Virus record (IMG/VR): IMGVR_UViG_3300036816_000036 | Span: 1-40,889 of that record | Length of the DNA: 40,889 nucleotides | Origin: a virus | Direction: 5' to 3' (one strand) | Shown here: positions 1-40,889 of the stretch, in pieces | How positions within the stretch are numbered: the first letter of the stretch is position 1 | Layout: the number at the start of each line of letters is the position of its first letter | Position numbers and translations under genes: made by a program | The notes under the pieces: generated by a model | What the model was told of the DNA's origin: nothing | The model's input: the letters and a program-made list of their open reading frames with translations, nothing else | Databases searched by the model: none

Positions 1-127
1 CCGCCTGGTGCAAGCGGACCTCTTCGAGAAGCAAAAGGCCCAGTTCGAGAACGGGCCGCCGAAGCTCGCGCCCGCCCCGCCGCCCGCGCGCATGCAACGC
101 GGGGAGCGGATCTGGAACATCTTCCAT
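1..127. repeat. Terminal overlap of circular assembly, left copy
   Basis: Bases 1-127 are identical to bases 40763-40889. A gene that starts at 40596 continues in frame through the repeat and ends at 244, so joining the ends restores one intact gene. The exact length of 127 bases matches a common maximum k-mer of de Bruijn assemblers. This is therefore most simply an assembly overlap proving circularity, not a biological terminal repeat. Confidence 0.93.
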
Positions 128-36577: not shown

Positions 36578-37816
36578 TTAGAGCGTGCTCCAGGCGGTTC
36601 CGTCGTCCCGCACGGGATCCAGGCCCGTGTATTTGGCCCAGCGGGTGAGGATCACGTCGATATACCGCGGGTCGAGCTCCATCATAAAGCACCGGCGGCC
36701 GGCCTTCTCGGCGGCCAAAAGCGTGGACCCCGAGCCACCAAAAAGGTCAGCCACGATGTCGCCACGCTTCGAGGCGTGGCCCATAGCGCGCTCGATCAAC
36801 TCGATTGGCTTCTTGGTGGCATGTTCATCGTCGCGCCCCATTTTGCGCTGCACGTGCCAGATGTCCTGGTACTCCTGTTCGCCTTGGTGTGTGTCCAGCT
36901 CGGGCTTGCCCTTTTTAAAAACGTGGATGAACTCGTGGGTGTATTTGTAGTCGCTGCCAAGGCCGTGGACGACCTTGTCCCAAACTATGAGGTTGGAGAA
37001 ATGGAACGTTTTTTTGAACTGCGGAACCAGCTCATGGGAACGCCGCCAGTCAAGGCACACGTACGCGATCGAATTGTCCTTCATCAGCATCCAGTAGCTC
37101 GCCACCATTCCCGAAAGCAGCGCCTCCCACTCCTCGTCCGTGAAGGAATCGTTGAACATGTGGCTCAGCCAGGCTGAGCCACTGCGCTTTTTGTCGACTC
37201 CCATTCCCGTATTGTAGGGCGGGTCCGTGAAGACCATATCCGCGCGCTCGGCTTCCATGAGGCGATCGACAGCGCCTACATCGGTGGCGTCGCCGCAAAA
37301 TAAGCGGTGATCCCCGAGGGTCCATAGATCCCCCAGCTTGCTCTTGGGCTCGACCGGCATGCTTACCGTGTTCTCGTCGGGATCGCCTCCTGGCGGTACC
37401 TTCTCGACGACGTCGAGGGTGAAGTTCTCGATACCCAGCAGGTCCAAGTTGAAGTCCGGCCCGAGCTCGCCCACATCCGTGTTGATCCCCGAGAGGTCAA
37501 GATCCGACCATGAGGCGATCGCATTGTCGGAGACCGCGAAGGCGTACTCTTGCTCGGGCGAGTCGAAGTCCTGGTACACCACCGGCACCGTCTTCATCTT
37601 GAGCTTCTTCGCTGCGGCCAAGCGCCCATGGCCGACAACCAGTTGGCCCGACTGGTTCGAAATGATCAGGGGATGCCGCCAGCCCTGGTACTTCAGGAGC
37701 TCAACGAGCCGGGAGATTTGTTCTTCCGAATGGACGTTTCGATTCTTGGGATTCGGTCGGACATCTTTGATGTCGATGAACGTGGGCTCGGAGTTGTGGT
37801 CGAAGATCTGTTCCAT
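36578..37816 (-). CDS. ParB-like domain/DNA methyltransferase fusion
   Basis: 412 aa. Residues ~12-130 are a ParB/sulfiredoxin-like domain (RPNPKNRNVHSEEQISRLVE; VVGHGRLAAAKKL at 60-72). Residues ~155-410 are an amino-methyltransferase of the beta type: FTDPPYNTG (196-204, catalytic DPPY) precedes ADLFGGSGST (356-365, SAM binding), with ATKKPIELIERA and MELDP between or after. Such fusions methylate adenine-N6 or cytosine-N4 and are common in phages, usually to mask the genome from restriction. No endonuclease partner is nearby. The start codon lies at the foot of a strong hairpin. Confidence 0.9.
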   Translation of the reverse strand: MEQIFDHNSEPTFIDIKDVRPNPKNRNVHSEEQISRLVELLKYQGWRHPLIISNQSGQLVVGHGRLAAAKKLKMKTVPVVYQDFDSPEQEYAFAVSDNAIASWSDLDLSGINTDVGELGPDFNLDLLGIENFTLDVVEKVPPGGDPDENTVSMPVEPKSKLGDLWTLGDHRLFCGDATDVGAVDRLMEAERADMVFTDPPYNTGMGVDKKRSGSAWLSHMFNDSFTDEEWEALLSGMVASYWMLMKDNSIAYVCLDWRRSHELVPQFKKTFHFSNLIVWDKVVHGLGSDYKYTHEFIHVFKKGKPELDTHQGEQEYQDIWHVQRKMGRDDEHATKKPIELIERAMGHASKRGDIVADLFGGSGSTLLAAEKAGRRCFMMELDPRYIDVILTRWAKYTGLDPVRDDGTAWSTL

Positions 37817-37847: not shown

Positions 37848-38066
37848 TTACAGCCTACTCCATTCGAAGATGGTCGGGCTTTGATGGCGCGCGCGGAGCG
37901 TCTCCTGGATCAGCTTGGCGGCCTCGTACTTCGTCTTCGGCGTATTTTTGACCCCGAGCTGCCGGAGATAATTGATCTGGCTTTGGGTCGCCTCCCAGCG
38001 CTTGGCGCGGGGGGTATAGCTCGTGGTCAAAGTGCCGTTGTAGAAATTTTCCATCGGGTCATTCAT
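37848..38066 (-). CDS. Small protein with SAP-like/helicase-accessory motif (72 aa)
   Basis: First gene of the leftward operon. The segment ATQSQINYLRQLGVKNTPKTKYEAAKLIQ resembles the short helical motif (Q...L..LG......T..eA..lI) found next to nucleases and helicases in phage and bacterial proteins. The N-terminus is polar. Its ribosome-binding site lies in a hairpin loop (38067-38088). Function unknown. Confidence 0.6.
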   Translation of the reverse strand: MNDPMENFYNGTLTTSYTPRAKRWEATQSQINYLRQLGVKNTPKTKYEAAKLIQETLRARHQSPTIFEWSRL

Positions 38067-38088
38067 AGGGAGATTTCCTTTTCTCCCT
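38067..38088 (-). promoter_or_regulatory. Hairpin displaying the ribosome-binding site in its loop
   Basis: In the leftward mRNA, AGGGAGA (38088-38082) pairs with TCTCCCT (38073-38067). The eight-base loop AAAGGAAA holds the Shine-Dalgarno AAGGA, and the ATG (38066) follows the stem directly. The arrangement could bring the loop near the start or respond to a protein or to the adjacent RNA region. Confidence 0.5.
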
Positions 38089-38093
38089 CCCCC

Positions 38094-38723
38094 AGGTGTT
38101 CGCGCTTACAGCCGACCCGCGCGCGCGCACAAGTGAATTCCACGGCGCAAGCCGTGGAATCGCGGGGTGAAGGGGCGCGGCCCCTTCGTGTGAAAGTGCA
38201 TGCGGTGGCCTTTAGTCCTGGCAGCCCAGAACCATTTTCCACTCCGTCGGCTCTCCGGGCGCAGCGGCGCCACTTTATGGCCGCACCCCGTTCCGGGTGC
38301 GGGAACCGAAGCGTGACTGCATCACGGCTTCACGGGGGTATCTCCCCGTGTGCTCCCCGTTGCAGGACCGTCACCGTCCGTCCCTAGGCCAAGCTCTCGC
38401 TGCCTCCCGGCGCCCGCGCGCCGCCGCCCGTGCTCGGGCTGTAGGGATCCTCCCACCTTGCCATGACTCCGATCACCAAGGCCGCGCGCGAAGCGCAGGC
38501 TTTTATCCTTGGCCGGTCCCACAGTGGGCTTTTGGCTCAGTCTTATTTCTGGATTTCTTCGCCACGGATTTTGATTGCAGCGGTGGCGCGTGATATGCGA
38601 TGTTGCCGTTGCAGCCCAAAAATGCCGGGAAGCTTTTTTCGTGGCGAAGATTTCCAAAAATCAAACAGTTGGAATCTCCCTCCTATCTTGGCGAAAGTCC
38701 AGGTAGGGGGGTCTATTTTTTTT
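38094..38723 (+). ncRNA. Candidate large structured non-coding RNA (~630 nt)
   Basis: No credible gene covers 38067-38799. Long-range pairs close the first part: AGGTG (38094-38098) with CACCT (38454-38458), and CTTACAGCC (38105-38113) with GGCTGTAGG (38437-38445). Inside are CCCGCG/CGCGGG (38116-38121 with 38161-38166) and a 10-bp stem with a GCAA tetraloop (38137-38160). Further stems are GAAGGGGC/GCCCCTTC (38169-38187), AAAGTG/CACTTT (38193-38198 with 38271-38276), GGCGC/GCGCC (38258-38271), CCGCACCC/GGGTGCGG (38281-38302), a 9-bp stem at 38308-38331 and ACGGGG/CCCCGT (38332-38349). More hairpins follow to a strong terminator. The GNRA loop and terminator favour the plus strand. No clear promoter was found. 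It could instead be, or also contain, a replication origin. Confidence 0.6.
38678..38723 (+). terminator. Strong intrinsic terminator of the candidate RNA
   Basis: CCCTCCTA (38678-38685) pairs with TAGGGGGG (38704-38711). The stem continues as CTTGG (38687-38691) with CCAGG (38699-38703) around the loop CGAAAGT. TCTA and then eight T (38716-38723) follow. This is a textbook rho-independent terminator on the plus strand, yet no protein gene precedes it on that strand, which implies a non-coding transcript ending here. Confidence 0.8.
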
Positions 38724-38727
38724 GGCC

Positions 38728-38753
38728 TATCGACAAACCAAAATGGTTCGATA
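38728..38753. promoter_or_regulatory. Inverted repeat in the leader of the rightward operon
   Basis: TATCGA (38728-38733) and TCGATA (38748-38753) pair around ACCA-AAA-TGGT. It lies between the terminator and the Gp157-like gene, where a rightward promoter must be. A TCGACA/TAACTA pair with 16-base spacing overlaps it but matches consensus weakly. It may be an operator or a 5'-leader hairpin. The rest of 38754-38799 shows only the AGGAG ribosome-binding site. Confidence 0.4.
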
Positions 38754-38799
38754 ACTATGGCGCCTGGGCACGAAACCCTGACCTATAGGAGCTTTAACC

Positions 38800-39486
38800 A
38801 TGTCACCTGTTCCCCCTACTTCCCATCTTGACGGTTCGCATGAAGCGGACCAAGTTGATCCGCAAGGATCGGCTCCGACCTCGTCCATTTCGTCGTCACC
38901 ACCTGGGCCGGGCCCCAGCGGGGGCGTGGGCGAGGGTGCAGATCTGTCCCCGGTGCCGCGGCCCGGCGTGGCCCGGGGGCTCTTATTGATCGCACAAGAA
39001 CTCCACGAAATTGAATCCGCCCTGATCGAATGCGGCGGCGAGCTCCCGGCCCCGCTCGAGGAGCGGCTCTCCGAGGTGTCGATCGCCCGCGAACAGAAGG
39101 TCGACTCCTACGCCGCGATCATCCGGCGCGCGGAGTCGCTCGGCGCCGAGTACAAGGAGCACGCCGAGACCATCCTCGACATCGCCCAGGGCGCAAAGAA
39201 GCTGATCGCCCGCCTCAAAAACAACATCAAGGCCGCGATGCTGACGCTCGGCGTGGACACGCTCAAGGGCGATCAAGTCCAATTCCGCATGAGCCACATT
39301 TCCCCTAAAGTAGATCTGTTTAATGAGGACGAACTTCCTTCGTTTTTCATGCGAAAAGTCACTAAGCTCGAGCCCGATCTTGAGCTAATCAAAGAGCATC
39401 TCGAAGCAGGCAAGCAAGTCCCCGGCGCACGACTCCGGGAGAACTATGCGATCCGCGTTTCGGCAGCCAAAAAGGGGACCAAATGA
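38800..39486 (+). CDS. Gp157-like protein (228 aa)
   Basis: AGGAG precedes the ATG. The first ~60 residues are a Ser/Pro/Gly-rich disordered region. The rest follows the siphovirus Gp157 plan: EQKVDSYAAIIRRAESLGAE, a long coiled coil ending KKLIARLKNNIKAAMLTLG, then the LKGDQVQFRMSHISPKVDLF strand region, and an ending of EAGKQVPGARLRENYAIRV. Gp157 proteins commonly stand next to recombination genes; one was linked to phage resistance in Streptococcus. It overlaps the Erf gene. Confidence 0.85.
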   Translation: MSPVPPTSHLDGSHEADQVDPQGSAPTSSISSSPPGPGPSGGVGEGADLSPVPRPGVARGLLLIAQELHEIESALIECGGELPAPLEERLSEVSIAREQKVDSYAAIIRRAESLGAEYKEHAETILDIAQGAKKLIARLKNNIKAAMLTLGVDTLKGDQVQFRMSHISPKVDLFNEDELPSFFMRKVTKLEPDLELIKEHLEAGKQVPGARLRENYAIRVSAAKKGTK

Positions 39487-40160
39487 TTTTCTCAGATGAC
39501 TTCAAGGAACTGGCCACGGCACTTGCCAAGGCCCAAGGCGAGATGGATCACGCCAAGCGCAACCAGAACAACCCGCACTTCAAGTCGAGCTTCGCGGACC
39601 TCTCCGCGGTGATCGATGCGATCCGCGAGCCGTTCGCAAAGAACGGCCTGGCGTACATCCAAAGCCCGGTGACGCTGATCCAGGGAGAGGTCACCATTCG
39701 CACCAGGATCGTCCACTCGTCCGGCCAATGGACCGAGGGCGAGATCAGCGCGCGCCCCATGAAGAACGATCCCCAGGGCATCGGGAGCGCGATCACTTAC
39801 CTGCGCCGCTACGGGCTCATGGCCATGGTGGGCATCGCCCCCGCGGACGACGACGACGGCAACAACTCCTCAAGCGGTCACCACCGGGATAGGCAGGAGC
39901 CGCGCCGCCAGCAGGAGCAAAAGCCCCCGCAGCAGCAACCCGCGCCTAAGCCCAAGTGGGCGCCCTCGCCCGACCAGTTGCATGCGCTGAAGAACGCCGC
40001 GGACCACAACGGATGGACGTCCTCCGAGGTCAGCATGATGCTCTCGATGGATCACCGGGTCGAGAAGGCCAGCGAGATCCCCTCGCTTGCGATTTACGAG
40101 GCCGTGTTGAAGTCGGTCTCGGTGCCACCGGTTGACTTGCAGGTAAAGAGAAATGATTGA
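39483..40160 (+). CDS. erf: Erf-type single-strand annealing protein
   Basis: 225 aa, ATGA overlap with the gene before. The N-terminal ~135 residues match the ERF family: LATALAKAQGEMDHAKRNQN, NPHFKSSFADLSAVIDAIR, FAKNGLAYIQ and the signature GIGSAITYLRRYGLMAMVGI followed by ADDDDGN. A Gln/Pro/Arg-rich linker and a C-terminal helical domain (SPDQLHALKNAADHNGW) follow. ERF proteins anneal complementary strands and may circularise phage DNA or support recombination-dependent replication. Confidence 0.92.
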   Translation: MIFSDDFKELATALAKAQGEMDHAKRNQNNPHFKSSFADLSAVIDAIREPFAKNGLAYIQSPVTLIQGEVTIRTRIVHSSGQWTEGEISARPMKNDPQGIGSAITYLRRYGLMAMVGIAPADDDDGNNSSSGHHRDRQEPRRQQEQKPPQQQPAPKPKWAPSPDQLHALKNAADHNGWTSSEVSMMLSMDHRVEKASEIPSLAIYEAVLKSVSVPPVDLQVKRND

Positions 40161-40599: not shown

Positions 40600-40889
40600 G
40601 CGAGCCCAAGAAAAAGCAACGTCTCTCGGGCGCGGCCTACCGCCAGCTGCTCGAGGACCTGCGGCGCGCGGTGCCCGCGCACGTGCGCGAGCTCGTGGCC
40701 AAGGTGGTCTGGGACCGCAACTGGTACTTCGAGAAGTTCCACGAGAAGGAGGAGGAGCTGCGCCGCCTGGTGCAAGCGGACCTCTTCGAGAAGCAAAAGG
40801 CCCAGTTCGAGAACGGGCCGCCGAAGCTCGCGCCCGCCCCGCCGCCCGCGCGCATGCAACGCGGGGAGCGGATCTGGAACATCTTCCAT
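40596..40889 (+). CDS. 5' part of the join-spanning small hypothetical protein
   Basis: The ATG at 40596 overlaps the preceding stop. The frame is open to the window end and continues at base 2 of the window across the circular join, for a 136-aa product. The N-terminal part is basic and helical (KKKQRLSGAAYRQLLEDLRR; WYFEKFHEKEEELRRL). No family recognised. Confidence 0.8.
   Translation, partial: MSEPKKKQRLSGAAYRQLLEDLRRAVPAHVRELVAKVVWDRNWYFEKFHEKEEELRRLVQADLFEKQKAQFENGPPKLAPAPPPARMQRGERIWNIFH
40763..40889. repeat. Terminal overlap of circular assembly, right copy
   Basis: Identical to bases 1-127. Removing one copy gives a circular map of 40,762 bp. A circular assembly is expected for a genome packaged by headful with permuted ends, or for one with terminal repeats collapsed by the assembler; the sequence does not decide between them. 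Confidence 0.93.

Follow-up and report, generated by a model that had tools for sequence, protein, structure and literature searches.

Introduction

Many members of the GOLLD class of phage RNA are longer than 800 nt, and their conserved 3′ region shows extensive covariation. The put leader RNAs of phage HK022, which bring about antitermination without a phage protein, consist of two stems. GOLLD and ROOL are large RNAs of phages and prophages that are often encoded near tRNA islands and assemble into RNA cages, and their function is open (PMC12286853).

The DNA described here (the window) comprises positions 1-40,889 of IMG/VR record IMGVR_UViG_3300036816_000036, the complete-looking genome of an uncultured phage, 40,889 nt long with 61% GC. 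A candidate structured RNA (38094-38723, plus strand) lies in its largest gap, between two divergent operons. Should it prove to be an RNA, it would join the small number of large phage RNAs described so far, and its location in an early control region makes it testable. Like GOLLD and ROOL, the candidate is large, structured and phage-encoded, as far as can be judged from sequence alone. It differs from GOLLD in having no Rfam match at E ≤ 10 and in the absence of tRNA genes across the 40.9-kb window. The same two features set it apart from ROOL, of whose pseudoknotted architecture there is no sign. By analogy the candidate might work like GOLLD or ROOL, but it does not qualify as a member of either class. 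The put RNAs of HK022 are similar in that they are structured, stand first in divergent early operons and are followed by a terminator; they are much shorter, however, and the window may have a promoter past its terminator. The best reading of the gap is a new phage non-coding RNA, neither GOLLD nor ROOL, that is independently terminated.

Genome and Divergent Operons

Our own gene calling assigns about 92% of the genome to coding sequence. An identical repeat of 127 bp is present at both ends of the window (1-127 and 40763-40889), and the ends of related records carry repeats of 123 or 127 bp. These lengths resemble assembler word sizes; a real terminal repeat was therefore rejected, and the genome is read as probably circular or permuted.

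The two operons diverge from 38067-38799, with the methyltransferase/ParB side on the left (minus strand) and the recombination side on the right (plus strand). The first gene of the left operon (37848-38066) encodes a protein of 72 aa for which no family was found in protein searches; the same operon encodes a protein with ParB-like and DNA methyltransferase parts (36578-37816). The right operon begins with a Sipho_Gp157/Mu Gam-like protein (38800-39486) and continues with an ERF single-strand annealing protein (39483-40160). Queries with the Gp157-like protein or an 842-aa protein yielded no closer relatives.

From the ATG of the minus-strand gene to that of the plus-strand gene the gap measures exactly 733 nt. 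Phages seldom devote 2% of their genome to non-coding DNA. A hidden gene was considered and rejected on codon scores: under the genome's own codon model the four longest open reading frames of the gap score -0.26 to -0.33 per codon, compared with +0.22 to +0.47 for the neighboring genes. Pfam was blank for the three gap frames searched, and our gene caller leaves the interval empty. The sequence-only reading, which had seen no credible gene in these 733 bases, is thus borne out, and by codon scores no reading frame crosses the region.

Hairpins and Folding

Perfect hairpins, defined by a stem of at least 7 bp and a loop of 3–8, number five in the gap, compared with 0.28 ± 0.54 expected; none of 500 dinucleotide shuffles reaches five. 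Overlapping 733-nt tiles of the genome contain 0.46 on average, and only two tiles, taken to be those that cover the gap, reach five, the others having two at most. On the plus strand, a perfect 10-bp stem is capped by a GCAA (GNRA) tetraloop (ATTCCACGGC-GCAA-GCCGTGGAAT, 38137-38160). It is followed by 8-bp hairpins at 38169-38187 (GAAGGGGC-GCG-GCCCCTTC) and 38281-38302 and by a 7-bp hairpin at 38331-38350. The dense set of perfect hairpins and the GCAA-capped stem that had drawn attention to the locus are therefore real features. The gap also contains a long hairpin at 38540-38666, with 27-nt arms that are 81% complementary and an inner hairpin between them; its fold is one of the genome's strongest, whichever strand is taken.

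The interval 38094-38723 folds at -285.4 kcal/mol on the plus strand (z -5.3) and at -282.0 kcal/mol on the minus strand (z -3.8), and none of 60 shuffles matches its energy on either strand. Both halves contribute on the plus strand (38094-38460, z -3.7; 38461-38723, z -5.8), and in a genome-wide tiling the lowest z, -6.0, belongs to 38521-38700 on that strand. The local structure of the gap is beyond chance. Long-range pairing is another matter. The sequence-only reading had proposed helices 320–360 nt apart that close the first 365 nt. The folding program predicts some long-range helices, but exact 8-mer complements 200–450 nt apart number four, where shuffles have 2.8 ± 2.2 and 152 of 500 contain at least four, and there are no exact 9-mer complements at that spacing in the gap. 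The region may therefore be made up of separate hairpins or of several shorter RNAs. Of the large, ornate non-coding RNA first envisaged, the structured, non-coding and terminator-ended character stands, and the single closed fold finds no support in the complement counts.

The quality of the minus-strand fold raises the question of whether the region is a long 5′ leader of the left operon, with transcription starting near 38730-38799. In addition to the z of -3.8 for the whole interval, 38530-38670 folds better on the minus strand (z -5.3) than on the plus strand (-3.9). A 7-bp hairpin of the minus strand, the fifth of the perfect hairpins counted above, presents AGGA in its loop and occupies 38067-38088 directly before the ATG at 38066. 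From its sequence and position it belongs to the minus-strand gene rather than to a plus-strand RNA, and it may possibly serve in translation control of that gene. The consensus energy of an RNA shared by two related phages, described below, is also lower on the minus strand. Against a minus-strand leader are the location of the terminator and its T run on the plus strand, and the stronger overall fold of the plus strand, in the window as well as in most relatives. We consider such a leader improbable.

Searches for Known RNAs and Homologues

Rfam covariance models, including those of GOLLD, ROOL and OLE, gave no match in the gap at the gathering threshold or at E ≤ 10; the sole listing at E ≤ 10 was a chance-level Phe_leader (16.4 bits, gathering 55). 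The original observation that the region recalls GOLLD and ROOL but matches neither is in agreement with this result. Similar DNA was not found in 50,697 phage records, 72,556 plasmids or 31 related virus records, and nhmmer at full sensitivity detected no homologue of the gap in a comparison set of 270 loci. This lack of homologues carries limited weight; by sequence, the element appears to be an orphan. Two shorter search keys were tried and set aside. The GCAA hairpin occurred in seven viral contigs, all in unrelated contexts, one of them as a terminator hairpin. The exact motif GTTGTTTGAGATGTCCAAC gave two matches in 84,980 genomes, about the chance expectation, without the flanking elements.

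Terminator and Possible Promoter Region

The last element of the structured interval is a hairpin with a 14-bp stem (38678-38711, -22.1 kcal/mol); TCTA and a run of eight T (38716-38723) come after it. This is a good, though not perfect, intrinsic terminator of the plus strand, with a G+C-rich hairpin and a T run. The four bases between stem and T run depart slightly from the classical form, and a simple terminator scan did not list the hairpin. The strong terminator with eight T reported from the sequence is thus present, with that reservation. The T run and the stronger fold of the plus strand favor that strand as the transcribed one.

Between the T run and the right operon are 76 nt, with a good ribosome-binding site and an imperfect palindrome (TATCGACAAACCAAAATGGTTCGATA, 38728-38753) that is a possible operator and has no further exact copy in the window. 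The palindrome overlaps a weak sequence, TCGACA-17-AACTAT, which may be read as a promoter. A promoter scan found no consensus promoter; those of the host may differ from the consensus.

The gap is a structured, non-coding, terminator-ended phage element that is probably transcribed. In the preferred reading it would produce an independent structured RNA, no longer than about 600 nt, from the plus strand, with a promoter near the left gene. Transcription would stop at 38716-38723, ahead of the recombination operon; that operon would have a promoter of its own within the 76 nt past the terminator. The RNA would most likely act untranslated in early infection by binding or pairing with a partner from the phage or the host. 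What we infer is that the region is transcribed, on which strand and from which 5′ end, and that its product acts as an RNA; the non-coding character, the above-chance structure and the terminator-like end are direct observations. The stronger plus-strand fold, the excess of hairpins, the terminator, the negative coding scores and the structured divergent gaps of relatives all argue for an independent non-coding RNA. The substantial fold of the minus strand, the chance level of long-range pairing, and the lack of a homologue in the sets searched and of a consensus promoter by scan argue against it. We give this reading as a whole a probability of about one half.

The terminator directly precedes an early operon, and the region could instead be a structured 5′ leader of that operon, in which read-through at 38716-38723 is regulated by a protein or, in the manner of the HK022 put elements, by the RNA itself. 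In a related phage, G018, the next gene begins about 8 nt past a terminator, too close for a promoter in between. A promoter-like TTGATT-18-TAGATT, recognized by eye, stands upstream of that terminator and is conserved in a second phage, L188. This arrangement speaks for attenuation in G018. In another relative, G008, a promoter-like TTGCAT-17-TACATT, also seen by eye, comes after the terminators and speaks against it. In the window the 76 nt past the T run leave room for a separate promoter, and a length of 600 nt exceeds the needs of a simple attenuator. A leader of this kind is rather unlikely here.

The hairpins might also act as DNA, for example as a replication origin or as a packaging or regulatory site. 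The gap adjoins the Gp157/ERF genes, contains strong inverted repeats that fold on both strands, and lies about 1.2 kb from the minimum of the cumulative GC skew, at 40010. That minimum is weak and outside the gap, however; no replication initiator was recognized among the window proteins searched, and no iterons or repeated binding sites were found in the window. A hairpin with eight T on one strand points to transcription, and we assign a DNA-level role a slight probability.

Divergent Gaps in Related Phages

Terminase relatives with 40–55% identity define a group of phages of about 36–41 kb with conserved structural genes. About 28 related contigs were gene-called, and folding was measured for all gaps of 250–900 nt with 12 shuffles each, which gives rough values; a gap was counted as structured if z was below -3 on the better strand. 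The contigs were picked by means of the region's own genes, so the sample is not unbiased. By this measure 8 of 11 divergent gaps are structured, compared with 7 of 51 coding stretches and none of 9 convergent gaps; the values for co-directional gaps are 5 of 17 and 3 of 9. The strongest divergent folds are those of L239 (-9.1, plus strand), the window (-7.5, plus strand, with the gap taken as 38067-38925) and L031 (-7.2, minus strand). Two related contigs, G005 and G011, are without such a gap, which counts against an independent RNA.

In each of the seven cases that could be assigned, the better-folding strand reads away from the methyltransferase/ParB side and towards the recombination side. 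It is the plus strand in the window, L239, L188 and, through RNA homology to L188, G018, and the minus strand in L031, G004 and G016. This shared direction is suggestive only, as the strand differences are small in some cases.

The arrangement of L239 matches that of the window, with a methyltransferase (49% identity) on the minus strand, a gap, and ERF (52%) on the plus strand. Its divergent gap of 649 nt (L239:834-1482) has a very strong plus-strand fold (z -7 to -9) and no match in Rfam or in phages. The clearest T-run terminator of L239 is on the opposite strand, a further point against the independent plus-strand RNA. In L031, an 823-nt divergent gap (L031:4302-5124) separates the ERF and methyltransferase genes; both strands are structured, and there is no Rfam match.

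RNAs in Related Phages

L186 (3674-3990; the G018 RNA) and L188 (1629-1931) share a well-conserved structured RNA, about 320 nt long and taken on the plus strand in both. As in the window, it lies between divergent operons, with a terminator before the gene on the recombination side. Of the 86 predicted pairs in the alignment of the two, both sides have changed in nine and a single side in another nine, and no pair is broken. On the strength of these changes, at least one phage of the window's group has a real RNA at such a place. A third phage (L185/L187) keeps the 3′ part with an E of about 1e-9 (L185:1382-1447, minus strand). The RNA has no match in Rfam. The cues to its strand conflict: one-sided changes favor the plus strand, whereas the consensus energy favors the minus strand (-98 vs. 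-78).

No homology of the window to this RNA was detectable, in sequence or in structure, by two covariance models, and this too argues against an independent RNA in the gap. Model R1, based on hairpin loops GAACU..CCGAUG and UUUGAGAUGUC, gave at best 2.3 bits in the window, and model R2, a three-way element with a CUGCA hairpin, did not detect it. Four parallels can be seen by eye in the same order: a GUGA-CUGCA-UCAC hairpin, a second hairpin, UGnUCCCC, and AGGA-hairpin-GUCCC. Since the models failed to confirm them, they are treated as chance. It is doubtful that phages with related terminases share, between their methyltransferase/ParB and recombination operons, one large structured RNA of a new kind, absent from Rfam, whose sequence evolves fast while its place and direction stay constant, and of which the window would be an extreme member.

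A different structured RNA is common to the ERF loci of other phages; 19 loci were aligned, and 20 are found with the model (L201:5770-5900, L226, L208, L229, L207, L221, L263, L212, L213, L218, L268, L225, L215, L227, L242, L214, L238, L244, L223:3322-3484 and L253:5182-5308). Compensatory changes are present in 21 of its 26 predicted pairs. On the reverse of the modeled strand the counts are more favorable, with 33 G-U cells and 24 broken pairs instead of 34, and it is probably this strand that is transcribed. Model R3, built from this RNA, has no match in the window, a negative weakened by the probably wrong strand. Four of the loci were searched against Rfam and gave no match.

These findings suggest that a poorly known phage group recurrently carries structured RNAs in its divergent control region, and that Rfam misses them. 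By itself the element in the window is a good candidate, and the recurrent structured gaps and two unregistered RNA classes add to its interest.

Among named phages, the RNA of the ERF loci is matched by only one 33-nt stretch, in two records of one Acinetobacter phage. Separately, a stretch between divergent genes (L199:820-1121) is conserved among ERF phages, with counterparts in L205, L204, L216, L240, L267 and L235.
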